A stretch of 64,000 nt of DNA from a virus, in IMG/VR virus record IMGVR_UViG_3300027832_000010, positions 1 through 64,000 of that record. The stretch is one strand, 5' to 3'. Position 1 is the first letter of the stretch, and each line of letters opens with the position of its first letter. A model generated the notes under the pieces. It had not been told where the DNA came from, made no database searches, and worked only from the letters and a program-made list of their open reading frames with translations. Positions 11,768-62,229 of the stretch are shown piece by piece. The position numbers and the translations under genes are program-made.

Positions 11768-11780
11768 AAATACCTCTCCG

Positions 11781-14032: not shown

Positions 14033-14038
14033 ACTAGT

Positions 14039-14067
14039 AGTATAACGTATTACAGCTTATCTGTCAA
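14039..14067 (-). promoter_or_regulatory. Sigma70-type promoter of the uvsW operon, leaderless geometry
   Basis: Minus strand TTGACA (14067-14062), 17-bp spacer, TATACT (14044-14039), six bases, ATG at 14032. Fourth case in the window with this exact spacing to the start codon. Confidence 0.85.
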
Positions 14068-44573: not shown

Positions 44574-46548
<1,975 letters not shown>

Positions 46549-46556
46549 ATAAGGAT

Positions 46557-46588
46557 AAAAAAGCAGAGTTAAACTCTGCTTTTTTTTA
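46557..46588. terminator. Bidirectional terminator between groEL and tail chaperone gene
   Basis: AAAAAAGCAGAG-TTAAA-CTCTGCTTTTTTTT: GC-containing stem with A-run before and T-run after, so it works on both strands. It ends groEL (plus) and the convergent gene at 46586 (minus). Confidence 0.9.
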
Positions 46589-47023
46589 TGGCTTAGTTGG
46601 CCACTGTGGATCCCAGGGATAACCTTGTTGTTCCGTTACATCTCGCAGTGCCTGGCGATAAGTTCCCCATTCAGCAATTTTTTCTGCGATCATTTTTTCT
46701 TGAATTGAAGGAAATTCAGTATAATCACTTTCAACAAGTAATTGAGTTCTCTTCTTGAGAGCCGCTTCTTCCAATTCTAGCTGATTGGGCGGTATTGTAA
46801 TATACCACTCCCCAATTCCTTCAGTAAGTTCGCCGAACTCGCCGGCCTTCAACCGAACATACATGTCAGACTGAAAACTATCGCTAAACGCTTCAGTTGC
46901 ATAAAATGGAATCGAATTCTGACATCCTTTAAACAGTACGGTACACCAAACTGCATCTACGCCTAGCATACTAGCAGCCTTAGTAACTTCTTGAATATCA
47001 TCTATTGTAAATACCTTTGACAT
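46586..47023 (-). CDS. Tail assembly chaperone-like protein
   Basis: 145 residues. The C-terminus WGTYRQALRDVTEQQG, followed by YPWDPQWPTKP, is the signature of the phage tail assembly chaperone-like domain found at the ends of tail-fibre assembly proteins. The N-terminal part is alpha/beta (AVWCTVLFKGCQNSIPFYA). AGGAGG precedes the ATG. It opens the oxygenase/halogenase island and may aid fibre folding or attachment. Confidence 0.7.
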   Translation of the reverse strand: MSKVFTIDDIQEVTKAASMLGVDAVWCTVLFKGCQNSIPFYATEAFSDSFQSDMYVRLKAGEFGELTEGIGEWYITIPPNQLELEEAALKKRTQLLVESDYTEFPSIQEKMIAEKIAEWGTYRQALRDVTEQQGYPWDPQWPTKP

Positions 47024-47049: not shown

Positions 47050-47655
47050 CTAGTTATTTATCCCAGTTGTTAATACTCCTAGTTTTGGGCGTTTATCAAA
47101 CGCATATTCTGGGTAAAACGGGCCATTGACATCGATATAGTGAAAAAATGCCTGCACTTGATAGCTGGTGTTACTTGCTACAAACGGATCTCTCCAATGC
47201 TCAACATCACATCCTCTATAAATTATAGCATCTCCCGGATCTTGATTAATTAACATATCAGGTTCAACATACATCCCCCAACGATAATCTGCAGGGGTTG
47301 ATTTATAGTTAAATCCAAAACATACAGTTGTGCTTATTTCGCAACTTGGCCTATCTCGATGTCTATGCAACTCCATACCTGGTCGATATACGCGGTAATA
47401 TGTATAAGTGGGACATAGTTTTAAACCGGTATTTTTTTCCATGTGCGGTTGCAAAAAATGTATCATTGTTTCCATTAATGTATCGCCGTAGACTGAATGA
47501 GAATTTTCTACTTGCGCAGTAGTACCTAAATCTGGTGAAAATTCTGTTTCTTCTTTTAGTAGAGCGTATCGTGTAATTATACGGCATAAATCAATAGGAA
47601 CTAATTTTTTTACATCAATGTATTTGTTTTTTTTAAATAGATCTGGGTTATTCAT
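47050..47655 (-). CDS. 2OG-Fe(II) oxygenase
   Basis: 201 residues, prolyl-4-hydroxylase-like. YYRVYRPGMELHRHRDRPSC gives HxD (H-R-D) and GCDVEHWRDPF the distal His; ISTTVCFGFNYKS and QAFFHYID are the flanking strands. It would use 2-oxoglutarate and O2 to hydroxylate a substrate. The 2OG-binding Arg after the distal His is less clear than in the neighbours. The start overlaps the next oxygenase by 4 nt. Confidence 0.75.
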   Translation of the reverse strand: MNNPDLFKKNKYIDVKKLVPIDLCRIITRYALLKEETEFSPDLGTTAQVENSHSVYGDTLMETMIHFLQPHMEKNTGLKLCPTYTYYRVYRPGMELHRHRDRPSCEISTTVCFGFNYKSTPADYRWGMYVEPDMLINQDPGDAIIYRGCDVEHWRDPFVASNTSYQVQAFFHYIDVNGPFYPEYAFDKRPKLGVLTTGINN

Positions 47656-48440
47656 TTAAATGGTGCTCCTAAACTCCAGCTAACTAAACTATATCTAGTA
47701 CCGCAAGTAACTGGTGTTACTTGATGAGGGACGTGTGAAGGAAATACTATAATTGATCCTTTTGGTCGAATTTCAGTACAAGTATGATATTGATCTGGGC
47801 GATGCGCTCCTAAATCAAATTTTAAGTTACCTCCTTCATAGTCGTCGGGATTGTTAAGGCTAATAGTTACACTAAGTTTGCGTATTTTTCCAATCATATT
47901 GGAATTATCTGTTGCCTGATGATCCTCTGGAGATGTTTCTCCAAAATGATTAGTATACGGAGATCCGTTGGTATTTTTACGAATGGAGTCAACTTCAGGG
48001 TTAAATAGTCGATACGGCAATTCTGATGAATCAGAATGCCAACCGTAGAATTGATCAACACTGTACTTTGTAAATTGCATGTCTTCGGTATAATCCCAAT
48101 CAAAGTTCCAGGCAGCACGCTGATTGGCTTCTCGAATAAAAGGCCATACAAGATCATATAAATTTGGATCATTTAAAAATGTTACCGACGAATCTCTAAG
48201 ATATACATTATCAATGTCAATGCCTTTGTTAACCAAATTTGCAGCAGTTTCAGTGTTTGAAGGAATTTTATCCTTACCAGCTTGCTTTTGTCTCCATCCT
48301 CCAGTTGTTCCTGCTATTACATGGTCTCCAAATTTTTTACGCTCGTCGTGCATTTTCCTTAAACCCATTTCGACTATTTGGTCGCAGATATATTCGGGAA
48401 TTGCCGATTTAAAGTACCAGTAATGATATTTTAGTATCAT
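47652..48440 (-). CDS. 2OG-Fe(II) oxygenase (PKHD type)
   Basis: 262 residues. QFYGWHSDSSE gives H-S-D, KLSVTISLNNPDDYEGGNLKF the conserved centre, and GSIIVFPSHVPHQVTPVTCG followed by TRYSLVSW the distal His and the Arg for 2OG. This is the PiuC-like/PKHD arrangement. AATTTAA separates it little from its neighbours, and the operon reads 49054 to 47050. Confidence 0.85.
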   Translation of the reverse strand: MILKYHYWYFKSAIPEYICDQIVEMGLRKMHDERKKFGDHVIAGTTGGWRQKQAGKDKIPSNTETAANLVNKGIDIDNVYLRDSSVTFLNDPNLYDLVWPFIREANQRAAWNFDWDYTEDMQFTKYSVDQFYGWHSDSSELPYRLFNPEVDSIRKNTNGSPYTNHFGETSPEDHQATDNSNMIGKIRKLSVTISLNNPDDYEGGNLKFDLGAHRPDQYHTCTEIRPKGSIIVFPSHVPHQVTPVTCGTRYSLVSWSLGAPFK

Positions 48441-49054
48441 TTAAATATTGCTCCATGAACATGTCCTACTATAATACGTTTAACTCCATTAGTTACAGCG
48501 TTAATTTTGTAAGGCATGTATGATGGAAAAATTAAACAAGCGCCTTGATCGTTCAATTCCGATTGTGATGTATCGATATTTAAAAATTCAATATCACCGC
48601 CATTGTATGTTGTAGGATCAGACAAATTGATTATAAAGGTAATTTTTCTAGAAGGGGCCATCGGCGTTAATTCTAAATGCATGTTATAGAAATCGTCTTC
48701 TGAATATGTAAATACTTGGGGGAAGTCTTGGTCAATAATTCCTATAAGATTGAAATCGTAAATTTCGGTATTTGCATTTTTTGTAATTTCTCTAATATTT
48801 AGAAAAGGAAATCCAGCAGTGTCGCCGCGCAACTTTTGTCTTTTAGATTGATGAAATTCTTTAGATCCTATAACAGTTGACGGTAGCCATAATTCTTCAA
48901 CGCAAGTAGATAGAATCTGATCACACTCGTCCTTAGAAAACATCATAGCTTTATTGATTGATGTAATTTCTAATGTTGGTATGTTTGTTGTAACGAGTTC
49001 TGCCGGGTCAGTAAAATTACTGTCGGACAAAGTTTCTAGATTGTCAGTAGTCAT
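48437..49054 (-). CDS. Degenerate 2OG oxygenase-fold protein
   Basis: 205 residues. It is a paralogue of the preceding oxygenase (ITFIINLSDPTTYNGGDIEF, GACLIFPSYMPYKINAV, KRIIVGHVHGAIFK), but the metal triad is altered: H-L-D is H-L-E (YNMHLEL) and the distal His is Tyr (MPYKIN). Iron binding is probably lost, so it may act as a non-catalytic partner. ATG 49054 has GGAG; the open frame extends 31 codons more. Confidence 0.65.
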   Translation of the reverse strand: MTTDNLETLSDSNFTDPAELVTTNIPTLEITSINKAMMFSKDECDQILSTCVEELWLPSTVIGSKEFHQSKRQKLRGDTAGFPFLNIREITKNANTEIYDFNLIGIIDQDFPQVFTYSEDDFYNMHLELTPMAPSRKITFIINLSDPTTYNGGDIEFLNIDTSQSELNDQGACLIFPSYMPYKINAVTNGVKRIIVGHVHGAIFK

Positions 49055-49092
49055 TGAGGCACTCCAATTTGTTGTGTTGATGTTTATTCTAA

Positions 49093-49100
49093 TATTTATT
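49093..49100 (-). promoter_or_regulatory. Late-type box before the minus-strand oxygenase operon
   Basis: Minus-strand AATAAATA (49100-49093), leader of about 40 nt with GGAG before ATG 49054. Confidence 0.45.
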
Positions 49101-49164
49101 AGTTTACATAGACTAGTATGTAAATTATGAGTTATCGCTTTCAACATTGTGTAACTAGCAGCTT

Positions 49165-49172
49165 AATAAATA
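49165..49172 (+). promoter_or_regulatory. Late-type box before the plus-strand halogenase operon
   Basis: AATAAATA (49165-49172), leader of about 16 nt with GAAGG before ATG 49194. It is divergent from the box at 49093. Confidence 0.5.
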
Positions 49173-49193
49173 CTTCATAATAGAAGGTAAAAA

Positions 49194-49805
49194 ATGAGTA
49201 CCCCGATTTTAACAGACTCAAGTATAACACATGCTCAAGTTCAAGTAACGCCTCGAGAGAATGAATTTATTGAACATTATGTGTTAGGGCCGCACTTTCC
49301 TTGGTTCTGGCAAGATCATCAGACATTTAAAGACGATCCAAACTTACCTTTAGAAATTAAAGAAAATCTTAAGTTTTATAACGGACCGTTCTTAAGTCAT
49401 ACACTACTACATCGATTCGAGGATGAGAGTGTAAAGCATACCGAACGAGATAGTAAACACATTAGTACACATTTTGAGTTTTTTTTAGAAATATTTCACC
49501 GATTTATGTCCAACAATGGGCTTAAATATAGTAATATATTTAGAGCAAACTTAAATTTAACTTGGCACTCTAGCGACTTACATTCAGCACCCCATTTAGA
49601 TCATACCTGGCCGCATAATAATTTTATTATGTATCTTACTACTTGTAAAGACGGACATACAATTATATGGTCAGAAGATTTTTTAACAAGCTACATGATA
49701 CCGTGTGAAAAATATATTGCAGCAACTTTTAGACAACAATGGCATGCACAGAGATACCCTGCACCAAGTTCTAAGCGAGTTGTATTAGTAATTACATATA
49801 TATAA
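49194..49805 (+). CDS. 2OG-Fe(II) oxygenase
   Basis: 203 residues. HSAPHLDHTWPHNNFIMYLT gives H-L-D, and WHAQRYPAPSSKRVVLVITY the distal His with the 2OG Arg. HFPWFW near residue 34 is shared with the oxygenases at 51355 and 55321, so these three form a subfamily. It opens the first halogenase operon. Confidence 0.8.
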   Translation: MSTPILTDSSITHAQVQVTPRENEFIEHYVLGPHFPWFWQDHQTFKDDPNLPLEIKENLKFYNGPFLSHTLLHRFEDESVKHTERDSKHISTHFEFFLEIFHRFMSNNGLKYSNIFRANLNLTWHSSDLHSAPHLDHTWPHNNFIMYLTTCKDGHTIIWSEDFLTSYMIPCEKYIAATFRQQWHAQRYPAPSSKRVVLVITYI

Positions 49806-49820
49806 TATTAGGAAATTTAA

Positions 49821-51380
49821 ATGAATATAGTTATTGTTGGCGGAGGAACAGCTGGATGGGCAACTGCTATGATGGCTGCTAAACGACATCCAGCCCATAG
49901 TGTCACAGTTATAGAATCTTCTAAGATTGGAATTATTGGGGTCGGCGAAAGCACTACTGGTCGTATGACTGACTTACTGATGAACTTGTTTGACGATTAT
50001 GGCTGTGACATGAATGAGTTTATCGAAGAAACTGGCGCAACTTTAAAATATGGTATTGAGCACAAAGGATGGACTGATAATATTGATCAGTCATACTTTG
50101 GTCCTATTGACGGTAGTTGGACACACGCTAGTGCTCCTGATCCTATATTTTCTTGGGGACTTAAAAAGTTATCGCATGATAAATTACTAACTACTGCAAA
50201 ATGTGGATATTGGATTGATAACGGTATATCAACTTTTAACAGAGATACTATGTCATTCTTAACTCCTAATAATGCTATGCATGTAGATGCGCAGTTAGTA
50301 GGAGAATATTTCAAAAGAAAATGTTTAAATAATACAAATGCTAGACATATCGACAGTGAAGTGGTAGACGTTAGTCTTGATTCAATTACAGGAAATATTA
50401 AAAGTGTTAAATTGCGCAGCGATGAGATAGTCAATGGTGATTTTTTTATCGACTGTACTGGATTTTCAAAAGTATTAATGAATAAATTAGATAGCAAATG
50501 GATAGGGTATCGAGATCAACTGCCGCTTAATACTGCTATTCCTTTTTGGCTGGATTATGAAAAAGATGAGATACCAGCTATTGCTTCTGTTGCGTGGGCA
50601 CAAAAAAACGGATGGATGTGGCAAATTCCGCTGATGGATCGTAAAGGGGCGGGCTATATATTTGATGATAGATTTACTACTGTCGAAAAAGCTCAAGAAG
50701 AAGTTGAAACAATATTAGGTTGCCCGGTCGACGTACGAAAGGTTATAAAGTTTGATGCAGGTCGACAAGAATCATCTTGGATTAAAAATTGTCTGGCTAT
50801 TGGTCTATCGTCAGCATTTTTAGAGCCATTAGAAGCAACTTCGATTCATTCAACAATTGTACAAGCACACATGTTCTTGTATCAATACGTAAAACCCACG
50901 ATCGAAGAAACATTAAACGACGGTGCAAGAAAAATTCACAATCAACGAGTTCGTCAGATGTATGACGATATCAAAGATTTCTTAGTCATGCATTATATGG
51001 GTGGAAGAAGCGATAGTGACTTTTGGAAGTACGTTAAATTTGATATTGACAAACCAGAGTATATATTGAATCTTGTTGAGTTGTCAAAATCAGGGATGCC
51101 TAATACGCACGAATTTCCTAGCTATCAGGGATCAGCAGGTTGGCCTCTTTATAGTTATGTTATGGCAGGGCTTGGGCTGATAAACAAAGAAGCTGCATAT
51201 GCAGGATTAAATTTTAATCTTTCAGGATATGGCAATTGCGAACAGGCAGCTGCCCATGCATATTATGAATTACAAGATACATGGAAACAAGATGCTAAAG
51301 CCTGTTTAACCTACAAAGAATTTATTCAACATTTTAGAGAGTTAAGATTTAAAAATGGCTTTTCAAATAAACAATATTAA
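49821..51380 (+). CDS. Flavin-dependent halogenase 1 (tryptophan halogenase family)
   Basis: 519 residues. IVIVGGGTAGWATAM is the FAD-binding GxGxxG. TLKYGIEHKGW near residue 75 places the Lys that carries the chlorinating intermediate in PrnA (Lys79), GWMWQIPL the WxWxIP motif that blocks mono-oxygenase chemistry, and SSAFLEPLEATS the second active-site Glu (PrnA Glu346). All halogenase hallmarks are present. Substrate unknown; a viral homologue, VirX1, accepts several substrates. The next gene starts inside its end (26-nt overlap). Confidence 0.88.
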   Translation: MNIVIVGGGTAGWATAMMAAKRHPAHSVTVIESSKIGIIGVGESTTGRMTDLLMNLFDDYGCDMNEFIEETGATLKYGIEHKGWTDNIDQSYFGPIDGSWTHASAPDPIFSWGLKKLSHDKLLTTAKCGYWIDNGISTFNRDTMSFLTPNNAMHVDAQLVGEYFKRKCLNNTNARHIDSEVVDVSLDSITGNIKSVKLRSDEIVNGDFFIDCTGFSKVLMNKLDSKWIGYRDQLPLNTAIPFWLDYEKDEIPAIASVAWAQKNGWMWQIPLMDRKGAGYIFDDRFTTVEKAQEEVETILGCPVDVRKVIKFDAGRQESSWIKNCLAIGLSSAFLEPLEATSIHSTIVQAHMFLYQYVKPTIEETLNDGARKIHNQRVRQMYDDIKDFLVMHYMGGRSDSDFWKYVKFDIDKPEYILNLVELSKSGMPNTHEFPSYQGSAGWPLYSYVMAGLGLINKEAAYAGLNFNLSGYGNCEQAAAHAYYELQDTWKQDAKACLTYKEFIQHFRELRFKNGFSNKQY

Positions 51381-52005
51381 AAACGAAATACTCGTTATAG
51401 ATAATGTTGTGCCTGCTACTTTTCAACTAGCAATTATCAATAGAGTACAAGGTGTAAATCATTTCCCATGGTTTTTACTACATCGTATCGGACATCCTGA
51501 TCACTATGGGATAGGAACAACTTCTAATTATGTTGATCCAAATATAACTGATGACGTTGGGTTCTTTCATATGGCATTTGATGGTAAAACTACTTCTCCT
51601 CATTATGATTTTTTTAGAACAATTTTAGAATTTTTTGCAGAGAAAACAAATATCAATGTAGGAAATTTACTAAGAATAAGACTTCGTTATACACATAAAG
51701 GGCAAGGTCATACTGAGCACAAATATGCAGCCCCACATGTGGATTTTAATACTGGAAAACCTTACAGTACGCTTATCTATTATGTAGATGACAGCGATGG
51801 CGATACTATTATATTTGATAAAATTTTTGATTCTACTCAAGAAATATATAATCCAGCATCGGCTGATCCTCTACCAGAGTTGCTAAGGATAACTCCTAAA
51901 AAAGGGTCAGCATTATTTTTTAACGGACATCGATATCATGCAGGAAATTATCCAATAACCTGTAGTTCTAGAATAGTAATTAATTTTGACTTTGAGCAAC
52001 TATGA
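51355..52005 (+). CDS. 2OG-Fe(II) oxygenase
   Basis: 216 residues. YAAPHVDFNTGKPYSTLIYY gives H-V-D, and GHRYHAGNYPITCSSRIVIN the distal His and Arg; NHFPWFLLHRIG marks the shared subfamily. It overlaps halogenase 1 by 26 nt and the next oxygenase by 4 nt, so the three are made together. Confidence 0.82.
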   Translation: MAFQINNIKNEILVIDNVVPATFQLAIINRVQGVNHFPWFLLHRIGHPDHYGIGTTSNYVDPNITDDVGFFHMAFDGKTTSPHYDFFRTILEFFAEKTNINVGNLLRIRLRYTHKGQGHTEHKYAAPHVDFNTGKPYSTLIYYVDDSDGDTIIFDKIFDSTQEIYNPASADPLPELLRITPKKGSALFFNGHRYHAGNYPITCSSRIVINFDFEQL

Positions 52006-52658
52006 CACATCCGTATAAAAACTATTTCATTTGCAGAGATAGCTATTTTGAAAAACCAGAAGATGTTATTGAATTATCAAAAACTCTAAACTACGCTAGA
52101 TCTACATATTATCCAGGAGAGCGTACTGGCAACTTGTTAGGATTTGAAGATCCGGAAATTAAAAAATTTGCCGACTGGTTTGCCAATAGACTTAGTCATG
52201 ATATATTTCCAGGTATTAGCATGTATGAATTATATCTATGTTTTCATGTTAATGTTCCTTGTAGTGATCCGCGCTATAATAAAGGATGGATACATAATGA
52301 TTACGGAAATCTAGCAGGATTAGTATATCTAACACCAGGCGAAGACAACCTAAATACAGGAACTTCAATTTTTAACAGCGACGTTAATGAATTATCAAAT
52401 ATTGAAGAATTGAAAACTGATGCTGCTGCATTAAAAGAGTTTTATCTTTACAATAAGATCACACCCGAGTTTATTACAGGTTTTGAAAATAATCGTCAAA
52501 TGTTTGAGGATCAAGAAACTATTAGGATAGGCAATAAATTTAATAGAATGATTGCATACGACTCTAAATTTTGGCATAGACCTAATAGCTTCACTACAAC
52601 ATTAAATACCCCTAGACTGTCGCTACTGTTTTTTGTATCACAATTTAATTATAACTAA
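52002..52658 (+). CDS. 2OG-Fe(II) oxygenase-like protein
   Basis: 218 residues. KGWIHNDYGNLAGLVYLTPG gives H-N-D and KFWHRPNSFTTTLNTPRLSL the distal His and Arg. Between them lies a long insert (about 125-180). It resembles DUF6445-type oxygenases. Its ATG overlaps the previous stop (ATGA). Confidence 0.75.
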   Translation: MTHPYKNYFICRDSYFEKPEDVIELSKTLNYARSTYYPGERTGNLLGFEDPEIKKFADWFANRLSHDIFPGISMYELYLCFHVNVPCSDPRYNKGWIHNDYGNLAGLVYLTPGEDNLNTGTSIFNSDVNELSNIEELKTDAAALKEFYLYNKITPEFITGFENNRQMFEDQETIRIGNKFNRMIAYDSKFWHRPNSFTTTLNTPRLSLLFFVSQFNYN

Positions 52659-52681
52659 GTAGTAAACAGGACATATTATAA

Positions 52682-54148
52682 ATGCACACATTAAAAAAGA
52701 TTTCAGTAGTTGGTGGGGGGACCGCAGGATTTGTTTCTGCGTTGATTCTAAAAACTCGTTTCCCTCATTTAGACATTAATATTATCCGATCTAAAAAAAT
52801 TGGAATCATCGGAGTAGGCGAAGGTAGTACAGAGCACTGGAATGAATTCATGCAGTATATCGGAGTTCCGTTTCAAACTATTATTAAAGAATGCGATGCT
52901 ACCTTTAAATGTGGAATTATGTTTAAAGGATGGGGAGACGATTATATGCATAGTATTGGGCCAGAAAATGATATTAAAAATGGACAATATGCATCGGTCT
53001 ATGGCAAATTAATTGGAGAGCAATCTCCTGCAAAAACAATAAATCCTAGTTTTTCTTGGAATAGCAGAGTATATGCAAATAGATTAGACCCTGCTTCTGG
53101 GTCTCCGTGGAATCAATATCATTTCAATACCAGTAAACTTAACGATTTTTTATTAAAGGTATCCCTTAATAAAGGTATTACTATGGTAGACGACGAAATA
53201 CTAGATGTTGTATTGTCTGAATCTGGAGAGATAGATTATCTTGTTGGCGAACTAGCCCAATATCCTGCTGATTTTTATATTGATAGCACAGGATTTAGTA
53301 AAGTATTAATATCAAAGTTAGGTGCCAAATGGCAATCGTACGGCGAATATCTCAAAATGAAAGCTGCTATTGTATTCCCATTGGGAGATACTGACGAGTA
53401 TAATATGTGGACCCTGGCACAAGCAATGGACTATGGTTGGATGTTTAAAATTCCGGTATGGGGTCGTAGCGGAAATGGATATATTTTTGATAGTGATTAT
53501 ATAACTCCGGAGCAGGCTAAGGAAGAAGTTGAAAAATTACTAGGGCACGAAATTCAAGTTGCAAAAACTCTTAAATTTGATCCGGGCTCATTAGATCGAG
53601 TGTGGATTAAAAATTGTTGCGCAGTTGGGCTGAGCGCTAGTTTTGTTGAACCGTTAGAAGCTACTAGTATAGGTACAAGTATTCAACAGGCATTTTTACT
53701 AATGCACCGATTGCCAAATTATGACGAAGCAACAATAAACAAATATAATAAAGATGTTAACGATATCTTAATTAACATTAGAGATTTTGTTATATTGCAC
53801 TATATTACAAAAAAAGATAATACTCAATTTTGGCGTGATATACAAACAATGCCAGTTCCAGAAAGTCTTACAGAAAATTTAAAAAAATGGCGTAAGAACT
53901 TGCCTATTGCTGATGACTTTAAAGGCACTACTGATTACAAATTATTTAGCGAAGCGCATCATATTCATATCCTTGCTGGATTAGACCTGTTTGATACAGA
54001 GTTAATTAGACAAGAATACAATATGATGCATCCAAAGATAAAAGAACAGGCTGAAAATTTTATTAGAGAAACAAGAACATTTGAAAAAATAAACCCTACC
54101 GTAGGACACAAGCAGTACATTGCCCATGTTCGTAGTACCAAATATTAA
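52682..54148 (+). CDS. Flavin-dependent halogenase 2
   Basis: 488 residues. ISVVGGGTAGFVSAL binds FAD; ATFKCGIMFKGW contains the catalytic Lys and SASFVEPLEATS the Glu. The WxWxIP motif is GWMFKIPV, with the second Trp replaced by Phe. Whether halogenation is retained cannot be said from sequence. It ends the first halogenase operon and converges with the minus-strand oxygenases (4-nt overlap). Confidence 0.8.
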   Translation: MHTLKKISVVGGGTAGFVSALILKTRFPHLDINIIRSKKIGIIGVGEGSTEHWNEFMQYIGVPFQTIIKECDATFKCGIMFKGWGDDYMHSIGPENDIKNGQYASVYGKLIGEQSPAKTINPSFSWNSRVYANRLDPASGSPWNQYHFNTSKLNDFLLKVSLNKGITMVDDEILDVVLSESGEIDYLVGELAQYPADFYIDSTGFSKVLISKLGAKWQSYGEYLKMKAAIVFPLGDTDEYNMWTLAQAMDYGWMFKIPVWGRSGNGYIFDSDYITPEQAKEEVEKLLGHEIQVAKTLKFDPGSLDRVWIKNCCAVGLSASFVEPLEATSIGTSIQQAFLLMHRLPNYDEATINKYNKDVNDILINIRDFVILHYITKKDNTQFWRDIQTMPVPESLTENLKKWRKNLPIADDFKGTTDYKLFSEAHHIHILAGLDLFDTELIRQEYNMMHPKIKEQAENFIRETRTFEKINPTVGHKQYIAHVRSTKY

Positions 54149-54729
54149 CTAAAGTTCATTGCAATTGATATTCTTGGATCTACATTTGTTCCTTGTTCTA
54201 CACAATGTCGAAGATACGCTCTAAATATAATCAATGTACCTGAAGTTGGAGTGTATGAAATCCTAGAATAACTTAATGTATTCTTTTTAGTGAGACTTTT
54301 AAGTGGGAACATATCTGGTTCTTTAGGATCTTCAAATATTATTCGGCCTGAGCCTTCTGGAGCAACAGGGTAATATACAGCACTAAAAATATTTGCATTG
54401 TGCGTGTGAAATTCTTGCCAGGATTCTTTATTAGAGATATTCATCCATGCGTAGTTAGTTTCATAAGTCCCATCACAGTTATGCATCTTTGCAAATTTAT
54501 GTACATGCTGAGTTGTAGCTGCAATAAGTGGATGTATTACTGGGTCGTCAAGAAGATTATGTGTTTGGTGAGTGTTATACGTTCCCCCTAACCACTCTAA
54601 TCCTCCGCTAGGAGTATGTTTCTGAATGTCTAAACAATGTTGTTTAATTTTTTCATTTTCTTCAGCAGACATTAGAGCATCTTCTGTATAAACAGCTACT
54701 GGAAACCACATTTCAATTTTTTGCATCAT
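54145..54729 (-). CDS. 2OG-Fe(II) oxygenase (TIGR02466-like) A
   Basis: 194 residues. NKESWQEFHTHNANIFSAVY, then YPVAPEGSGRIIFEDPKEPD, and AYLRHCVEQGTNVDPRISIA match the TIGR02466-type family; the first metal motif reads H-T-H rather than H-x-D, as in its neighbour. ATG 54729 lies in the end of the next gene; the further-upstream frame start would overlap it fully. Confidence 0.75.
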   Translation of the reverse strand: MMQKIEMWFPVAVYTEDALMSAEENEKIKQHCLDIQKHTPSGGLEWLGGTYNTHQTHNLLDDPVIHPLIAATTQHVHKFAKMHNCDGTYETNYAWMNISNKESWQEFHTHNANIFSAVYYPVAPEGSGRIIFEDPKEPDMFPLKSLTKKNTLSYSRISYTPTSGTLIIFRAYLRHCVEQGTNVDPRISIAMNFS

Positions 54730-55324
54730 TATCCGCCCATATGTTAAATGAAACAGATATTCTATTTCTATTAGATTTATTTTGTTGTACAGTATGTTGT
54801 AACCACGATTCAAATATCAACATTTCCCCCACTACAGGGCTATATTTTACATGACTGTAATTGTATTGATTATCTGCTTTTTTAATTCTGTCAAAAAAAG
54901 TATTTGATGCTCTTCGAGTTTCTAATGGATTATGAAATAGAATATCCCCAGAATTTTCTGGGACTTCTAAATAAAACACTCCGCTTATCAATGCGCCATA
55001 ATGATCATGTCTAACAAAATATGAGCCGGGTTGATTGTATTGTAACCAAGATGTTATTTCTACATAGCATCGTGGATCGTACCCTATTAGATCTAAATAC
55101 TCTCGAGATGCATTGTTAATATAATTTAACAAAGTTATATCACCTAATTTTCCTAAAAAGTCTTTATCTTTATAAAATGTGGTTAGCAATTCACCAGGTG
55201 CCGTTGGGTGAGAAAAATTAGTATCCGTAATAAACTGATTAACCAATTCGGTTGTATTTTTTACTATTTCATCGTCTACTACATATGTAGCAATAGGAAT
55301 TGGAAAAACATTATCAAATTTCAT
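54713..55324 (-). CDS. 2OG-Fe(II) oxygenase (TIGR02466-like) B
   Basis: 203 residues. VRHDHYGALISGVFYLEVPE gives H-D-H, GDILFHNPLETRR the central strand, and WLQHTVQQNKSNRNRISVSF the distal His and Arg. It is a paralogue of gene A, and both overlap their neighbours by a few bases. The family often lies near tail-fibre genes in marine phages. Confidence 0.75.
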   Translation of the reverse strand: MKFDNVFPIPIATYVVDDEIVKNTTELVNQFITDTNFSHPTAPGELLTTFYKDKDFLGKLGDITLLNYINNASREYLDLIGYDPRCYVEITSWLQYNQPGSYFVRHDHYGALISGVFYLEVPENSGDILFHNPLETRRASNTFFDRIKKADNQYNYSHVKYSPVVGEMLIFESWLQHTVQQNKSNRNRISVSFNIWADNDAKN

Positions 55325-55938
55325 AGCGGTAACAAATTAAGATTAATAATTACTCGATTGGTGCTTTCTATAGGATTACTAGCAGTATGATACTGCAACC
55401 CGTTGATCCACACTAATCGATTAGCTTTAGGAGTTACTCTACTTTGCGTAGTAAACGAGTCTGGACCTAACGGCAGCGTACCAGTAGGCGTAGCCCATTC
55501 ATTAAATATTCTAGTATCTCCATCACTGTCATTAAGATAAAAAATAAATGATTCGTGAGGGAAAAAATAATCAACATGCGGTATGTTATAGTTATCACTG
55601 GTAAACCCTTGCTTTTGAAATTTTAAACTAAGTCTTGCTCTAACTAGATGCTGCTGAGTAAATCCAAATTCTTTATTAATTTTTTCAAAGAACGGTTGTA
55701 AATATTCATAAGTAAAACTCTTAACATTCCATTCTTGTTCAAAAACTGAATGGTGAAATCCCCAAGTTTCTTTAGCTAAGGGATCTTTTATTAATGCAGA
55801 GTCGCTAGGATCAAGAGAGACATGTTCTCCAAAGAACCAAGGAAATTTTGGTCCTAGTACAAGTTCAGCTAGTTTGTTAAACTCTGCACTATCAAGAAAA
55901 TTATCAAAAACTTGTAAACTGTTGCTCATGCTGATCAT
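55321..55938 (-). CDS. 2OG-Fe(II) oxygenase
   Basis: 205 residues. YNIPHVDYFFPHESFIFYLN gives H-V-D and LQYHTASNPIESTNRVIINL the distal His and Arg; GPKFPWFFGEHV marks the 49194/51355 subfamily. The late promoter box four bases before ATG 55938 decides the start (MISMSNS); the open frame begins 22 codons earlier, inside and beyond the promoter. Confidence 0.82.
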   Translation of the reverse strand: MISMSNSLQVFDNFLDSAEFNKLAELVLGPKFPWFFGEHVSLDPSDSALIKDPLAKETWGFHHSVFEQEWNVKSFTYEYLQPFFEKINKEFGFTQQHLVRARLSLKFQKQGFTSDNYNIPHVDYFFPHESFIFYLNDSDGDTRIFNEWATPTGTLPLGPDSFTTQSRVTPKANRLVWINGLQYHTASNPIESTNRVIINLNLLPL

Positions 55939-55942
55939 ATAG

Positions 55943-55950
55943 TATTTATG
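55943..55950 (-). promoter_or_regulatory. Late promoter CATAAATA, 4 nt before ATG
   Basis: Minus-strand CATAAATA (55950-55943), CTAT, ATG 55938. It drives the three minus-strand oxygenases between 54145 and 55938. Confidence 0.65.
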
Positions 55951-56009
55951 GAAATATTTTTTACCAAGAGTAAAAGTGATAAGTACTATTATTAATGAAG
56001 GCAAAACTA

Positions 56010-56675
56010 ATGAGTCAAAACAGTTACGAACAATACTGGAAAGATGTACATAAAAATAAATTTAAGTTTGCATCTAAAACTAATGTATCAGTGCTACCAT
56101 GGGATATACAAACTCATTATGCTAACCTACAAGAGATACTTGATATTTTTAATTTATCTAGTGGAAATGCACTAGAACTAGGATGCGGAACTGGATACGA
56201 TTCTAAATTTCTTTTTGAGCAAGGTTTCGAAGTTACTGCTATAGACATTTCTGAAGATGCTATTGAAATAGCAAAACACAACACTTCCGAAATTGATATT
56301 GACTATATAGTAGGAGATTTTTTTAAGGATCTACCCAACAAACAATTTGATTTGGTATACGATAGAGGGTTTTTACATAATTATCAAAATAATTTTTTAG
56401 AAATCTTTGAAAAATTAAACGATGTGATGGCCGAACATGGAAAATATATTTTTATCACCGGTAATCCAAATCAGCCAATAATCGATACATGTATGCCTCC
56501 TCCAGTCTTTTTAGGAGCAATCGAAAGTTACTCTTCGCATTGGTTTAAGGTTGTATTCGTTAAAGAAATAGTATTTAAGGTTGACAAAAATTATCAAGAC
56601 TGTCTAGGATATATATTCTTATTAGAAAAAAGATTACCAAATCCTACAACCGATACAATAGTGAGAAATAAGTAA
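56010..56675 (+). CDS. SAM-dependent methyltransferase
   Basis: 221 residues, class I. NALELGCGTGYDSKFLFEQG (about 53-72) is motif I, VTAIDISEDAIEIAKHN motif II, YIVGDFFKDLP and FDLVYDRGFLHNYQ motifs III-IV. It resembles TPMT/Tehb-like small-molecule methyltransferases. GAAGG lies before ATG 56010; an earlier ATG at 55995 lies upstream of that ribosome site. It starts the second halogenase operon. Confidence 0.82.
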   Translation: MSQNSYEQYWKDVHKNKFKFASKTNVSVLPWDIQTHYANLQEILDIFNLSSGNALELGCGTGYDSKFLFEQGFEVTAIDISEDAIEIAKHNTSEIDIDYIVGDFFKDLPNKQFDLVYDRGFLHNYQNNFLEIFEKLNDVMAEHGKYIFITGNPNQPIIDTCMPPPVFLGAIESYSSHWFKVVFVKEIVFKVDKNYQDCLGYIFLLEKRLPNPTTDTIVRNK

Positions 56676-56679
56676 TATT

Positions 56680-58149
56680 ATGAAAGTAGAAACTCTAACA
56701 ATAGTAGGAGGCGGAACAAGTGCATGGATGGCTGCAGCCTATATATCACATAACCATCCTGCAATTTCAGTAACTGTTATAGACAAAGAAGTAGGAAATT
56801 CAATAGGAGTAGGTGAAGCTACACTATTAACTTTTCAGCCATTTATGGAAGAATGCGGATTTCCTATAGATGATTGGTTTACAAAAATAGATTGCGGATA
56901 TAAGTCTGGAATTTTATTTGCTAACTGGAGGGAGAAGGGTAATAATATTTGGCATCCTTTTTTTAAAGGTAATAGAAGAATTACAGAACACTACCATTTA
57001 TGGGACGTATGGTCTCTAGTTCAAGAATTAGATTTTAAAACATATAGTACGGGCAGCTATAGCTCTAGTATACTACACAATACTGTTGACTCTACTAATC
57101 TTCACAGTTATGCTTCTCACATTGATTGCGGAAAATTGGTTTTATATATTCAAGATCAATTAAAAAATAAAATTAAAATTATAAAGTCTGATGTAATTAT
57201 AGTCAATAAAGATGACAAAGAAAATGTAGCTTCTTTAGAACTTAAAGACGGAAGTATAATCTCATCTGATTTATACTTAGATTGTACAGGATTTCATAGT
57301 ATATTGAGGAAATCTAAGAATAAAGTAGATTTACTAGGAAGACTATTTGTTAATACTGCTGTAGTATGTCAAGTACCATATCAAGATAGACCAAACGAAT
57401 TTAAACCATATGCAGAATGCGAGGCTGTTGACCACGGATGGATTTGGAAAATTGGGGTGGCTTCTCGTATTGGTAGCGGGATGGTTTTTAACAGAAATAT
57501 TACTGATCCTGAAGAAGCAAAGGATTACTTTGTTGAGCATTGGAATAATCGAATCAAGAAAGAAAATGTTAGAATAATTAATTGGGATCCTTTTTATAAT
57601 ACAGATCCATGGTCCGGAAATGTAGTTCAAATTGGGTTAAGTAATGGATTTATAGAGCCGCTAGAAAGCACAGGCATAGGTTTGATTACAGTAGGAATTA
57701 CTCAACTAAGCAATGCAATAATGGAACAATGGTATGGTGATAATGATGTTGCTAATTTTAATTCACAATTGAATACACTGTATGAAGATTGTATTGATTT
57801 TGTAAGTATGCATTATGCTAACAACAATAGAACTAGTAAATTTTGGAATTATGTTAGAGATACATTTGTTCCTTCAGAAAGAATGTTACATTATCTCGAC
57901 AGATTGACTAATCCTAATATTAAAGTTCCTGTTGACGGGAAATATAATTATATGTTTGGTGGAAGCAGTTGGTCTATGCTACTACAACAACTTGGTTACG
58001 ATATTGCTCCTCGTACCATTCCGTACTCGAAAGAGTATGCTACGGAAGTTATGGCTAGAAACTATATTGAGTATGAAAAAAATAAACATATCTGGAGTCG
58101 GCATCATAGCAGCGAAATTGATAGAATTATTGAACTTGGCAAATTATGA
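56680..58149 (+). CDS. Flavin-dependent halogenase 3
   Basis: 489 residues. LTIVGGGTSAWMAAA binds FAD (the usual AGW is SAW). CGYKSGILFANW carries the Lys and SNGFIEPLESTG the Glu. The WxWxIP motif is GWIWKIGV, with the Pro replaced by Gly. IGVGEATLLTFQPFMEECGF near 45 is close to PrnA's IGVGEAT segment, so this copy looks nearest to classical tryptophan halogenases. Its TGA overlaps the next ATG. Confidence 0.83.
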   Translation: MKVETLTIVGGGTSAWMAAAYISHNHPAISVTVIDKEVGNSIGVGEATLLTFQPFMEECGFPIDDWFTKIDCGYKSGILFANWREKGNNIWHPFFKGNRRITEHYHLWDVWSLVQELDFKTYSTGSYSSSILHNTVDSTNLHSYASHIDCGKLVLYIQDQLKNKIKIIKSDVIIVNKDDKENVASLELKDGSIISSDLYLDCTGFHSILRKSKNKVDLLGRLFVNTAVVCQVPYQDRPNEFKPYAECEAVDHGWIWKIGVASRIGSGMVFNRNITDPEEAKDYFVEHWNNRIKKENVRIINWDPFYNTDPWSGNVVQIGLSNGFIEPLESTGIGLITVGITQLSNAIMEQWYGDNDVANFNSQLNTLYEDCIDFVSMHYANNNRTSKFWNYVRDTFVPSERMLHYLDRLTNPNIKVPVDGKYNYMFGGSSWSMLLQQLGYDIAPRTIPYSKEYATEVMARNYIEYEKNKHIWSRHHSSEIDRIIELGKL

Positions 58150-58892
58150 ATATAGTTAATTGGTCTTTTATTACCAGCCAGCAGGTTAATATAGATCATC
58201 TAACATGCATTACTAAATTATTGGACGAAGATTATTATCCCTTCAAACACCTATCATCTGATATAGTTGCTAATAGGAAAGGTGCTGCTTTTTTAAAATG
58301 CCCTGCGCATACTGATTTTTTAAAAAACACATTTATCTTTTGTGCGCCATTTGATTTAACTATAGAGTTAGATATTTGTAATGAAACGAATACAGTTAAA
58401 ATATACTGCGAGAATATTTCTCAAGAAGCATTTGAATCAATTATTGATACTAGATTTTTATATGATAAAAATCGCGGAGTTTCCGAATATCCTCTGTTAG
58501 GAATTGATTGGCTAACTGTATTCATTGCTGATCAATCAACTATAATTCAGGTATTCCCAGCATTTATGCATCGAAATGATTTTACAGAAAAAACTACTAT
58601 TGTTCCTGGCGAGTACGACATTAGTAAATGGACCCGTCCTATTGAAACAGTCTTTGAAATTAAAAATATCAAAGAAAAAATTATTATTAAAAAAGGTGAT
58701 GCTATTTCTTATATCAAATTCATAACAGACGATATTACTAAGTTAGAACAGATTAGCACACCGTGGAACGATATTATTACATGTCATAATATTGTAAATT
58801 CAAATAGACTTAGACCGTTAAAAGAACGATATAAATCATTAGAAGAGATAAAATTAAATCAGGAATGTCAGTATGATTCAAAAAATAAATGA
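58146..58892 (+). CDS. Unknown protein between halogenases
   Basis: 248 residues, no family recognised. It has a strand-rich core (FIFCAPFDLTIELDICNETN, DWLTVFIADQSTIIQVFPAF) with CPAHTDF near residue 58 and FMHRNDFTEK near 142. The C-terminal third is helical and charged. It overlaps halogenase 3 by 4 nt and halogenase 4 by 20 nt, so it is tied to them; it could be a flavin- or substrate-delivery partner or another oxygenase-like fold without a clear triad. Confidence 0.6.
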   Translation: MNIVNWSFITSQQVNIDHLTCITKLLDEDYYPFKHLSSDIVANRKGAAFLKCPAHTDFLKNTFIFCAPFDLTIELDICNETNTVKIYCENISQEAFESIIDTRFLYDKNRGVSEYPLLGIDWLTVFIADQSTIIQVFPAFMHRNDFTEKTTIVPGEYDISKWTRPIETVFEIKNIKEKIIIKKGDAISYIKFITDDITKLEQISTPWNDIITCHNIVNSNRLRPLKERYKSLEEIKLNQECQYDSKNK

Positions 58893-60384
58893 AATTGTTA
58901 TACTCGGAGGCGGCTCTGCTGGTTGGCTTACTGCACTATATTTAAAAAAAGTTTTTCCGGATAATAACTATACACTCGTCGAGGATCCCGCTACTCCTCC
59001 AATAATTGCAGGAGAAAGCTCGGCTGCAATTTTAACTTCATTTTATAATTTTTTAGAAATCGATCAAACTGATTGGGCTATAAAAACACATGCATTACCA
59101 AAATTAGGTAGTAAATTTATAGACTGGAACGGTGTTGGTACAAATTTTATTCATGGTTTGATTTCAGATCAATATCGCACTGCTTATGATAGTAATTTTT
59201 TGTCAACATTTAATTTAAATAGAGATTTTATATCCTGTGCTCTTGCAGAAAATATAAAAATGGAAAATATTTTTTATTGTTCTGAAATGATCAAACAAGA
59301 TAAATTGCCAATAATACAAAAATCTAACAACACGTTTGAAGCACTACATCGTTTTATGTGGCATTTCAATAGTAGAGAAAACGCTGCATATTTAAAAAAT
59401 CTAGGGCAACAGCGAGGAATTAAATTAATTAAGAAAAAATATGTTAAATCTAATCTAGATGCATTGGGTAACATATCATCTGTAACTGTTGACGATGCTA
59501 CTAATATTGTCGGGGATTGGTTTTTTGATTGTAGTGGATTTGCAAGGTTATTATTACAAAAAACTCTAGGGGTTACTTCAACGGATTATTCTAATTTATT
59601 TCCAGCTAGAAGTGTTGTGGCTTGGTGGGACAGTAATACTACATTAGTAAACTATACTGCTGTGACTGCAATGAAATATGGGTGGTCTTGGAGAATTAAT
59701 TTAGACGATCGAACCGGCAACGGGTATGTGTTTGATCCCGATCACATTACCCCAGATCAAGCTGTGGAAGAAATAAAAAATAAATTTAATACTGACATAG
59801 TGCCAGTTGCAAATTTAAATTTTACACCATCATTGGTAAAAGAATATTGGAAAAATAATGTAATTGCTATAGGAATTAGTAGTGGGTTTTTAGAACCGTT
59901 AGAATCTAATGGTCTTGGGCAGGTAATTACACAATTAATACTATTAGAAAAATTTTGGAATCCTACTGAAACTGGACTATTCGATCAAAAATTATATAAT
60001 GATGAAGTAACTAGTCAAATGAAAGAAATTATTAATTTTTTATCATTGCATTATAAAGGACATCGTAGAGATACAGATTTTTGGAAAAGTCATTCGTTTG
60101 ATTCCAATAGAACCAACGACTATCTAAAAGAAAAAATTGAACAGTGGAATGAAGGTATTCTTGTTGACAATGATCTTACTGTGTATCCGTTTGAAAGCTA
60201 CGTTACTGTAATACAAGGGCTTGATTTAATTAATTTAGACAAGCTAAAAAAGCGATTATGTACTCGACCTAACATATTTAAAAATTTTTATAAATCGTAT
60301 AACAATACAATGTTAGAAAAACAAGAAATTATTGATCAGAGTTTAGATTTAAAAACATGGTACCGTTTAATGTTTGACAAATAA
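58873..60384 (+). CDS. Flavin-dependent halogenase 4
   Basis: 503 residues. IVILGGGSAGWLTAL binds FAD. ALPKLGSKFIDW has a Lys in the PrnA Lys79 region, and SSGFLEPLESNG the Glu. The WxWxIP motif reads GWSWRINL, with Asn for Pro. The GVGE segment is IAGESSA, the most divergent of the four. FSWxxx substrate loops also differ, so it probably acts on a different substrate. Confidence 0.8.
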   Translation: MIQKINEIVILGGGSAGWLTALYLKKVFPDNNYTLVEDPATPPIIAGESSAAILTSFYNFLEIDQTDWAIKTHALPKLGSKFIDWNGVGTNFIHGLISDQYRTAYDSNFLSTFNLNRDFISCALAENIKMENIFYCSEMIKQDKLPIIQKSNNTFEALHRFMWHFNSRENAAYLKNLGQQRGIKLIKKKYVKSNLDALGNISSVTVDDATNIVGDWFFDCSGFARLLLQKTLGVTSTDYSNLFPARSVVAWWDSNTTLVNYTAVTAMKYGWSWRINLDDRTGNGYVFDPDHITPDQAVEEIKNKFNTDIVPVANLNFTPSLVKEYWKNNVIAIGISSGFLEPLESNGLGQVITQLILLEKFWNPTETGLFDQKLYNDEVTSQMKEIINFLSLHYKGHRRDTDFWKSHSFDSNRTNDYLKEKIEQWNEGILVDNDLTVYPFESYVTVIQGLDLINLDKLKKRLCTRPNIFKNFYKSYNNTMLEKQEIIDQSLDLKTWYRLMFDK

Positions 60385-60403
60385 TTTTAGGATGATTAAT
60401 AAT

Positions 60404-61059
60404 ATGACAAAAATAAATTTATTCTCACCTATCTTTTACAAGTCTAGAATGGATCCGTTACTGTATAATAAAGATGAACTTTATTTAGATTTAAAACACA
60501 ATTACACATTAAACAATTCTAGAAAAGTTGAAGAAGCTGCGGCGGATTATTTTCCCGACACTAATTTTCATGTATATTATAAAGATTGGGATAATTTAAA
60601 TTATAAAAAAATAGATTTTACTTTGCTATACAATCAATATACTCAAGTAATTGAAGAATTTTTGTCTACTATTGGTTTTAATAATAATATAGAATACAAA
60701 TGGTATACTGTTAATATTAATGTAGCTAAAAATGGATTCTTAGATGAACATGACCATAACGGATCAATTCAGGAATATAAAGATTGGCCACATCAATTTT
60801 CTTTAGTACACTATTTTTCATTAAAACCACATCACTCTACTACATTTTTAAATCCAATAGGAGCTTGCACAGGGTTAGGAAAAAATTAGATAATACTGCT
60901 ATAGAAAATTCATCGTATTTTCAAAATTTTAACTTGCCTATGTTGGAAGATGATATTATTATCTTCCCCTGTTATATTAGGCATAGAGTTGATGAAAGCA
61001 AAATAACTACAGATGATTTACGAATTACTGTTGCAATAAACATAACAATTAAAGAATAA
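60404..61059 (+). CDS. 2OG-Fe(II) oxygenase with -1 frameshift
   Basis: About 218 residues if both parts are joined. Part 1 (60404-60889) has FLDEHDHNGSIQEYK with H-D-H and stops at TAG after GGA-AAA-AAT. Part 2, in the -1 frame to 61059, continues KKLDNTAIENSSYF and has CYIRHRVDESK with the distal His and DLRITVAINI with the Arg. The junction A-AAA-AAT is a heptamer of the bacterial -1 slippery type. Without the shift the protein lacks half its metal site. A single-base error in the A-run is equally possible. Confidence 0.65.
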
Positions 61060-61092: not shown

Positions 61093-62229
61093 TTAATATT
61101 TTACAATAACTACGCCAGAACCGCCGGTACCTCCGTGTGCTCCGGATCCGCCGCCTGTGTTTGCTCCTCCGGGGCCGCCGCCCACAATAACACCGCAGGT
61201 GTTGCCTGTGTTAAGTGCTTGTCCGCCGCCCATAAATTGACGACCTTGAGCGCCGCCTGTTAACGGATTATTAGGGTTTGGCGCAGCTTGACCTCCGTAA
61301 GGTCCTGCATGATGATAGCCACCGCCGCCACCGCCGCCAACGCCTCCGGCATAGGTTCCCCATCCTAAATGGCCACCACCACCACCACCGCCGCCCCAGT
61401 AAAGTGTTGGTCCTAGTGTGTCTGCTGCACGACCTACTCCGCCGGTTACTTGATCACTTCTAAATGATCCTCTATAATTTTGTCTACCATCCGGAGCACT
61501 AGCGCCGCCACCACCTGCTCCACCACCACCACCACCGTTGTGAGTGTTTTCATTATCTACGTTAAATCTAACACCGCTTCCGCCTGGATAACCTTGGCCG
61601 CTAACACTCAATCCACCATAATTGCGGGTGCGACTGTCAATGCCATCACCTGTGTTGGCACCTCCGCCCCCAGAACCGCCTGGGCGCCCTGCTGTGGGTG
61701 TGCCTAAGCCCCCTGGTTGAGAATGGTTCCAAGTACCTCCTTGGCCGCCGCCCGTGCCTGTCAAACTTGAAAATACCGAGTTTGATCCGTTATTGGTGCC
61801 GCCACCGCCGCCGCCTACTGTTACTGCATATCCTGTACCGGCTGTTACTGGAAAACTACGATTAAGTATTACGCCACCGCCACCGCCACCACCTCCCCAA
61901 GAGCTGCCGCCGCCGCCGCCACCGCCAACAACTAATACTTCAACAGTACCTGTAAATGTGGGCGTAAAAGTATGGCCGCCTACACCAGTAAACATATGAG
62001 CAATGCCACCTCCGGGAATATATGTTATTGTGTCGCCGCCTGTTCCTACAAGACCTGGACTGTATCCAGTTACAGGACGCCAACCTGCATTATCATAAAA
62101 TTCTAGTGTGTTCTGTCCGTTTGTTGTATTGAGTCTAAGTTTTGCTGTACCTACACCGGTACTTGTGGCATTGCTTGGTAAACTCAGTGCCGATGTTGCT
62201 GTAAACGTAGTATTTTTTAAAATTGCCAT
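61093..62229 (-). CDS. Glycine-rich tail fibre 1
   Basis: 378 residues. The N-terminal part (TNGQNTLEFYDNAGWRPVTG) is the usual fibre-attachment-like module, followed by HTFTPTFTGTVEVLVVGGGG and many poly-Gly blocks separated by short loops, ending SGVVIVKY. Such Gly-rich domains form polyglycine-II-like sandwiches at fibre tips and bind host receptors. Start AAGGAAAAAAC-ATG. The variable loops between Gly blocks are the likely receptor-binding parts. Confidence 0.82.
   Translation of the reverse strand: MAILKNTTFTATSALSLPSNATSTGVGTAKLRLNTTNGQNTLEFYDNAGWRPVTGYSPGLVGTGGDTITYIPGGGIAHMFTGVGGHTFTPTFTGTVEVLVVGGGGGGGSSWGGGGGGGGVILNRSFPVTAGTGYAVTVGGGGGGTNNGSNSVFSSLTGTGGGQGGTWNHSQPGGLGTPTAGRPGGSGGGGANTGDGIDSRTRNYGGLSVSGQGYPGGSGVRFNVDNENTHNGGGGGGAGGGGASAPDGRQNYRGSFRSDQVTGGVGRAADTLGPTLYWGGGGGGGGHLGWGTYAGGVGGGGGGGYHHAGPYGGQAAPNPNNPLTGGAQGRQFMGGGQALNTGNTCGVIVGGGPGGANTGGGSGAHGGTGGSGVVIVKY

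Follow-up and report, generated by a model that had tools for sequence, protein, structure and literature searches.

Organization of the island

What do four halogenases and ten 2OG-Fe(II)-oxygenase-fold proteins act on in a virus that encodes them beside its fibre genes? The window analyzed here is the 64,000-nucleotide stretch at positions 1 to 64,000 of the IMG/VR record IMGVR_UViG_3300027832_000010, which is 78,905 bases long. The sheath protein of the record was nearest to those of the jumbo phages Atu_ph07 and Phosso (~41% identity), so the record probably represents part of a larger myovirus genome, and no DNA-level match to the window was found among deposited phages. The island (47050-61059) lies between the sheath stabiliser/GroEL and the fibres. 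Its four halogenases are full-length and FAD-dependent; it also holds ten genes of the 2OG-Fe(II)-oxygenase fold, a methyltransferase gene and one unknown gene, and it is bordered by a tail-fibre chaperone gene on one side and by three Gly-rich fibres on the other. The gene list that the first-pass annotation had given for this interval was correct gene by gene, and its coordinates and reading frames agreed with ours. Fifteen ORFs of at least 180 aa were present in the island and none in shuffled DNA of the same composition. The G+C content was 33%, compared with 38% in the window upstream of the island, and the gaps between island genes did not exceed ~45 bases. The features are listed below.

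46586..47023, minus: tfa, tail-fibre assembly chaperone-like, left border of the island (PF16778 E 3.4e-11; phrog tail fibre assembly)
47050..47655, minus: ox1, 2OG-Fe(II) oxygenase-type (phrog_2954, named 'ferrochelatase', E 4.3e-42)
47652..48440, minus: ox2, 2OG-Fe(II) oxygenase (PF13640 E 2.9e-13)
48437..49147, minus: ox3, conserved putative pseudo-oxygenase, ox2 paralogue (PF13640 E 1.8e-6)
49194..49805, plus: ox4, 2OG-Fe(II) oxygenase-type (phrog_274 E 1.2e-21; HxD...H)
49821..51380, plus: hal1, FAD-dependent halogenase with Lys, Glu and WMWQIP (PF04820 E 4.1e-86; alignment)
51355..52005, plus: ox5, 2OG-Fe(II) oxygenase (phrog_274 E 3.1e-25; HxD...H...R)
52002..52658, plus: ox6, DUF6445-type 2OG oxygenase, phrog_1644 (PF20043 E 5.9e-7; complete HxD...H...R)
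52682..54148, plus: hal2, FAD-dependent halogenase, WMFKIP (PF04820 E 5.3e-90)
54145..54729, minus: ox7, 2OG-FeII_Oxy_5 type, HxH...H...R (PF13759 E 5.3e-17; listed ORF to 54813)
54713..55324, minus: ox8, 2OG-FeII_Oxy_5 type, HxH...H...R (PF13759 E 2.2e-23)
55321..55935, minus: ox9, 2OG-Fe(II) oxygenase (phrog_274 E 1.4e-35; listed ORF to 56004)
55995..56675, plus: class I SAM methyltransferase, variable island member (PF13847 E 5.1e-16)
56680..58149, plus: hal3, FAD-dependent halogenase, WIWKIG (PF04820 E 2.5e-81)
58146..58892, plus: unk, beta-rich protein, conserved partner of hal3 (phrog_17480 only; 8-member alignment)
58873..60384, plus: hal4, FAD-dependent halogenase, WSWRIN, variable slot (PF04820 E 6e-91)
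60374..61059, plus: ox10, frameshift-split 2OG-FeII_Oxy_5 gene (ORFs 60374-60889 and 60784-61059; PF13759/phrog_81 on the second part)
61093..62229, minus: Gly-rich fibre 1, 33% Gly (phrog_2295 E 6.2e-38, phrog_863)
62242..63375, minus: Gly-rich fibre 2, 29% Gly (PF21722 E 9.1e-11; phrog_2295, phrog_863)
63387..64000, continuing to contig position 64454, minus: Gly-rich fibre 3, 31.5% Gly (L005:3387-4454)

Only two of the three fibres are complete in the window, the third (contig 63387-64454) overrunning its end. The ORFs at 54145-54813 and 55321-56004 more likely start at 54726/54729 and 55935, respectively. A RiPP-like system with its precursor peptide inside the island was ruled out, since the short gaps leave no room for one.

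The four halogenases

Full-length PF04820 matches (profile cut-off 21 bits) were obtained for hal1-hal4, with E values from 2.5e-81 to 6e-91, and these were the only four halogenases of this family in the entire record. The GGG flavin motif, K76, and E335/E338 were invariant among the four in the alignment and were retained in their orthologues. The WxWxIP motif was exact in hal1 only, the corresponding sequences being WMFKIP in hal2, WIWKIG in hal3, and WSWRIN in hal4. By family and catalytic residues, hal1-hal4 are FAD-dependent halogenases of putative halogenating activity. Flavin reductases of the PF01613 type were absent across the record, so the host or an unseen gene must supply the reductant.

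The pairwise identity among the four was ~24-31% (BLAST), and the tree placed them in four old, separate clades, with hal1-hal3 each grouped with its own orthologues in the relatives and hal4 as the sister of a halogenase on another contig (L084). Recent tandem amplification of one halogenase is ruled out by the low identity together with the separate clades. This separation suggests several target sites, not one repeated step. From the coupling of oxygenase and halogenase in one operon, successive tailoring of a single substrate had been proposed in the first-pass annotation; given the four old clades, action on more than one site or substrate is just as likely.

The oxygenases and the accessory genes

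The ten oxygenase genes were called by Pfam or PHROGs, and their iron-ligand motifs were checked by alignment. The HxD/E...H iron triad was present in ox1, ox2, ox4, ox5, ox6, and ox9; it was conserved as HxD...H in 9/9 orthologues of ox1 and as HxD...H...R in 9/9 orthologues of ox2 and 8/8 of ox9. In ox7 and ox8, HxH...H...R replaced this triad in all aligned orthologues and paralogues, and the same motif was read from the sequence of ox10. The distal iron His of ox3 was changed to Tyr, Phe, or Trp in all nine orthologues, yet the gene was constrained (dN/dS 0.07-0.17), and ox3 is therefore predicted to be a pseudo-enzyme, conserved next to ox2, its presumably active paralogue. A second assembled contig, which matches at 99.97% identity over 10 kb, carries the identical frameshift in ox10; this argues against an error of a single assembly, although the two contigs possibly have reads in common.

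Among the accessory genes, tfa was retained in 8/8 syntenic contigs, and the methyltransferase profile also matched the loci L183 and L184. The structure model of unk (pTM 0.67) gave only weak, dUTPase-like matches in Foldseek (TM 0.29 to the query). Its comparison with phrog_7084 of the cyanophage cassette gave an hhalign E value of 7e-4 but a probability of 26%, and an iterative HMM did not reach phrog_7084. In an alignment of eight fibres or fibre fragments, one Trp (GG-x-W) was invariant, and a Tyr-Trp/Phe pair ahead of the GGGG run was conserved. The conserved Trp may have a structural role; the structure model of the Gly-rich fibre (pLDDT 48) was discarded.

Conservation and selection of the island in relatives

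When the four aligned halogenases were used to search IMG/VR, the top matches were contigs carrying four or five halogenases each. Eight of these share the order tfa-ox1-ox2-ox3-...-hal1-...-hal2-ox7-ox8-ox9-hal3-unk, mostly at 40-80% protein identity and with groES/groEL adjoining the island; some extend to the fibres, and one (L012) ends within hal2. A second search, which started from the fibre, was blind to halogenases, and left out the twin of the window, showed that 9/9 close fibre homologues adjoin the island, with the trio of Gly-rich fibres. Six of these nine contigs were new, which brings the island to 14 IMG/VR contigs, the window and its twin not counted. Gly-rich fibre loci lacking a halogenase were also found (45/66), mostly as distant N-terminal matches. 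The dN/dS values were ~0.03-0.20 for all tested island genes, comparable to groEL and indicative of purifying selection, and they are rough because dS is near saturation.

These results bear on an alternative in which recombination concentrates in the fibre region and has gathered there unrelated auxiliary metabolic genes of scattered function. Hypervariable regions near the fibres are known in such phages (PMC7029224), 2OG genes are scattered across cyanophage genomes, and part of the island fits this description: hal4, ox10, and the methyltransferase are variable, and ox10 is broken. Extra halogenases and oxygenases have been gained or lost between the core genes of the syntenic contigs. Independent dispersal of the genes in relatives, which the first-pass annotation had named as evidence against its proposal, was confined to hal4, ox10, the methyltransferase, and a few of the oxygenases, and the core genes stay in conserved order. 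We consider hitch-hiking improbable, since this order persists among contigs of such low identity, every tested gene is under purifying selection, and the same enzyme types stand beside fibres in unrelated phages as well as beside every close homologue recovered from the fibre itself.

Exchange of the cassette with the fibre in cultured cyanophages

In Syn10, the source of VirX1, a small gene and a tandem pair of halogenases follow the phrog_863 Gly-rich fibres, and several 2OG oxygenases come next. VirX1 (PDB 6qgm) is an iodinating enzyme known as a small-molecule iodinase. The gene run of P-TIM40 resembles that of Syn10. In S-CREM1, a collagen-like protein and a single halogenase are accompanied by a series of genes annotated as 2OG oxygenase and JmjC, and in Sf-CH11 the 2OG genes and a halogenase are flanked by two fibre-like proteins. 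A halogenase lay within ~1.5 kb in all 12 Syn10-type and all 9 S-RIM44-type Gly-rich-fibre records, which, with one record in common, make up 20 records from 11 distinct phages related by descent. The whole-record phrog_863 search missed the fibres of the window itself and was not used for counts there.

The S-RIM44 isolates showed a natural exchange of the enzyme cassette jointly with the fibre gene. Four of them (KX349291/293/294/296) have Gly-rich fibres, two extra halogenases, and oxygenases, with three halogenases in all; the others (KU594607, KX349292/295/297) have another fibre and a single, distant halogenase, with none at the fibre site. In the detailed comparison of KX349294 with KX349295, the neck side was 95.7% identical. 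Between the giant structural protein and the neck gene gp13, isolate Np_42 has a trio of Gly-rich fibres and a chaperone-like gene, together with two halogenases, a phrog_7084-like gene, and several 2OG oxygenases. At the equivalent site, Sn_08 has the other fibre (12% Gly), accompanied by a protein of 121 aa and a single 2OG oxygenase. Fibres and accessory enzymes within the neck/baseplate interval, the arrangement of a host recognition cluster, were thus found in both the window and S-RIM44.

A phage-type 2OG gene was located within 10 kb of the halogenase at 26/38 viral loci (three or more 2OG genes at 22 of the viral loci) and at 0/65 bacterial-genome loci, the latter being those with enough flank and the oxygenase profiles being phage-built, so that divergent bacterial oxygenases could be missed. 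The halogenases of P-SSM2 and HTVC008M and the third halogenase of S-RIM44 are located away from Gly-rich fibres, and a fibre role therefore cannot be general for phage halogenases.

Candidate substrates of the island

The linkage of the halogenases and oxygenases to the fibre shows a shared function, not a substrate. Three substrates had been suggested in the first-pass annotation: a fibre, a host glycan, and a secreted small molecule. The fibre gained support from the synteny, the fibre-first search, and the S-RIM44 exchange, and the other two stand as rivals. That the enzymes are kept or swapped with the fibre in related and unrelated phages suggests that these phages chemically finish the fibres with which they bind their hosts. 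Judged from gene content and order, the chances are about even that the island is a maturation cassette for the receptor-binding fibre, with hydroxylation and halogenation of its side chains. The wider proposal, that widespread phage cassettes of halogenases and 2OG oxygenases halogenate and hydroxylate the phage's receptor-binding fibre post-translationally and that the natural substrate of VirX1-type enzymes would then be a virion protein rather than a free metabolite, falls somewhat short of an even chance.

Under fibre maturation, the fibre trio would be made together with its chaperone late in infection. The 2OG oxygenases would hydroxylate side chains of the exposed polyglycine loops, with Pro before Gly, Asn/Asp, and His as candidates, and dead ox3 would probably assist ox2, either as its partner or as a subunit that holds the substrate. 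The FAD halogenases would draw reduced flavin from the host and chloride or bromide from the medium, and their targets could be conserved aromatic residues, namely the polyglycine domain's invariant Trp and those of the Tyr-Trp/Phe-Gly-Gly-Gly-Gly motif. The outcome would be adhesins of non-standard chemistry, with receptor binding tuned or resistance to proteolysis raised. In the accessible part of the S-SZBM1 virion proteomics study, no modification search is reported (PMC9146016).

The main rival is a glycan target, located either on the host or on the fibre: in relatives, heptose-type sugar genes accompany the same halogenases, and the window phage has a GT8 glycosyltransferase. The cassette would then hydroxylate and halogenate groups of the host envelope, leading to superinfection exclusion or receptor change, or a glycan attached to the fibre. 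Hal3-type halogenases adjoin RfaE-like heptose kinase/cytidylyltransferase genes in two lineages (the L018 group and S-SSM6a). In a sister group from this lineage (L016-L033), whose sheath is ~60% and neck ~67% identical, the same junction carries hal3 and hal1 but no 2OG gene; a cupin, an epimerase, and a PfkB heptose-type kinase/cytidylyltransferase accompany the two halogenases. O-carbamoyltransferases occur in the related clusters L039 and L045, and the GT8 gene of the window phage is accompanied by a mannose-phosphate-isomerase/cytidylyltransferase gene (16631-19037). However, no sugar gene was found among the island proteins, and, to our knowledge, all characterised FAD halogenases of the PF04820 family act on aromatic rings. 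Enzymes of the pelagimyophage host recognition cluster have been proposed to change the host surface (PMC7029224), but the joint exchange with the fibre gene itself suits a fibre substrate better, and a glycan target is rated as rather unlikely.

Alternatively, a host amino acid or metabolite could be converted by the island enzymes into a diffusible halogenated small molecule that serves as an antibiotic, a signal, or an antioxidant. PrnA performs the first step of pyrrolnitrin synthesis and thereby offers a precedent. For prnA of cyanophages, the usual guess is protection by an antibiotic (PMC2984593, PMC9964418), and a halogenated amino-acid or sugar metabolite was predicted from the S-SSM6a cluster (Iyer 2021, PMC7824862). 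Such a product is improbable for the island, since no scaffold-making, ligase, NRPS/PKS, export, or resistance gene was found among its proteins with Pfam/PHROGs, four distinct halogenases are under selection without a core pathway, and the link to the fibre type would be left unexplained.

Comparison with known systems

The substrates of cyanophage halogenases and of the many cyanophage 2OG oxygenases have been debated since ~2010. The proposed roles include antibiotic production, DNA repair, 2OG/nitrogen sensing, metabolite/capsule decoration, and host-surface change (PMC3037559, PMC9964418, PMC10452541, PMC7824862, PMC7029224). Cyanophages carry one or two prnA and up to five 2OG genes each (PMC3037559), 24 2OG genes are present in S-SCSM1 and ten in S-CREM1 (PMC9964418), and halogenases occur in 20/153 cyanophages (PMC10452541). 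The first-pass annotation had regarded a phage-borne tailoring system as new. Halogenases, 2OG clusters, and a predicted halogenase/2OG cluster had already been published (PMC3037559, PMC7824862), and the novelty is limited to the multi-halogenase, fibre-coupled form: an island of four to five halogenases with conserved order appears to be new. Our literature search, which covered sources other than subscription journals and preprints, found no paper linking phage halogenases, including VirX1, to tail fibres. The linkage points to a concrete place to look in cultured phages, namely the fibre. If fibre maturation is true, host recognition by phages includes enzyme-made amino acids that are invisible to sequence alone, which would bear on host-range prediction and on biocatalysis with enzymes that may halogenate peptides.

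The tryptophan halogenases PrnA, RebH, and Thal, whose structures have been solved, share with the island halogenases the family profile and the catalytic Lys and Glu, and their WxWxIP-type motif is matched exactly by hal1 only; they are distant relatives, and the island context gives no hint of free tryptophan as the substrate. The Syn9/Syn10 run has the same combination of Gly-rich phrog_863 fibres, tandem PF04820 halogenases, and several 2OG oxygenases, but it has two halogenases in place of four, lies on one strand only, and belongs to another phage family. In the ten-gene cluster of S-SSM6a, also a large phage, for which a halogenated metabolite was predicted, one hal3-type halogenase adjoins 2OG oxygenase(s); unlike the island, this cluster contains a carbamoyltransferase, a cytidylyltransferase, and RfaE (PMC7824862). 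The host recognition cluster of pelagimyophages and cyanomyophages likewise combines variable fibres with accessory enzymes near the neck genes, but these include glycosyltransferases (PMC7029224), whereas the island has halogenases and oxygenases in a strongly conserved order.

Oxygenases of the island

Three PHROG labels, phrog_2954 "ferrochelatase", phrog_274 "DNA endonuclease V" and phrog_1644 "minor coat protein", are misleading for the island proteins, the island members of all three being of the 2OG-oxygenase fold. In the alignment of ox3 (48437-49147), the iron-binding distal His was replaced by Tyr, Phe or Trp in all nine orthologues, each of which adjoined the active paralogue ox2, and ox3 is a conserved pseudo-oxygenase. 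The PF13759-type oxygenases (54145-55324 and relatives) displayed the pattern HxH...H...R in all homologues aligned, the superfamily pattern being HxD...H...R, and may possess a three-His iron site; their nearest solved chains, 3bvc and 2rg4, are both uncharacterised. The ox10 gene (60374-61059) carried a frameshift, and the sequence there was identical in the twin contig 3300007520_000030 (L177), which shared 99.97% identity with the window across 10 kb.

Halogenases in relatives

Between the relatives L007 and L008, hal1 showed 99% identity (dS 0.12), whereas the remaining island genes showed 69-84% (dS 1-2), which argues for recent local exchange of hal1. Compact halogenase-like proteins of 390-400 aa, matched by PF04820 in two pieces, were found in other contigs, with the Lys and EP-E motifs retained in those of L012 and L013:
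L012:8176-9354
L013:5089-6264
L014:17847-19058

In the sister group L016-L033, hal3 and hal1 were accompanied by heptose-type sugar genes (PfkB/cytidylyltransferase, epimerase, cupin) and occupied the same neck-fibre junction as the island, as in these examples:
L018:8383-13962
L029:3473-8944

Other features of the window

Adjoining the fibre region, phage-encoded GroES/GroEL was retained there in 8/8 syntenic contigs:
44574-46548, GroES/GroEL

The helicase gene at 10033-12812 (-) was seemingly broken into parts with an endonuclease gene between them, an arrangement resembling that of a split intein whose homing endonuclease is free-standing:
11781-12812, -, helicase N-part, its 3' end an intein N-half (Hint/intein profiles)
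10859-11767, -, NUMOD3/TnsA-like endonuclease, between the two intein halves
10033-10908, -, intein C-half and helicase C-part

Several large proteins of the block at 12812-19037 (-) gave no match in the Pfam search; the block also contained these two genes:
16631-18340, -, GT8 glycosyltransferase
18309-19037, -, cytidylyltransferase/mannose-phosphate-isomerase protein
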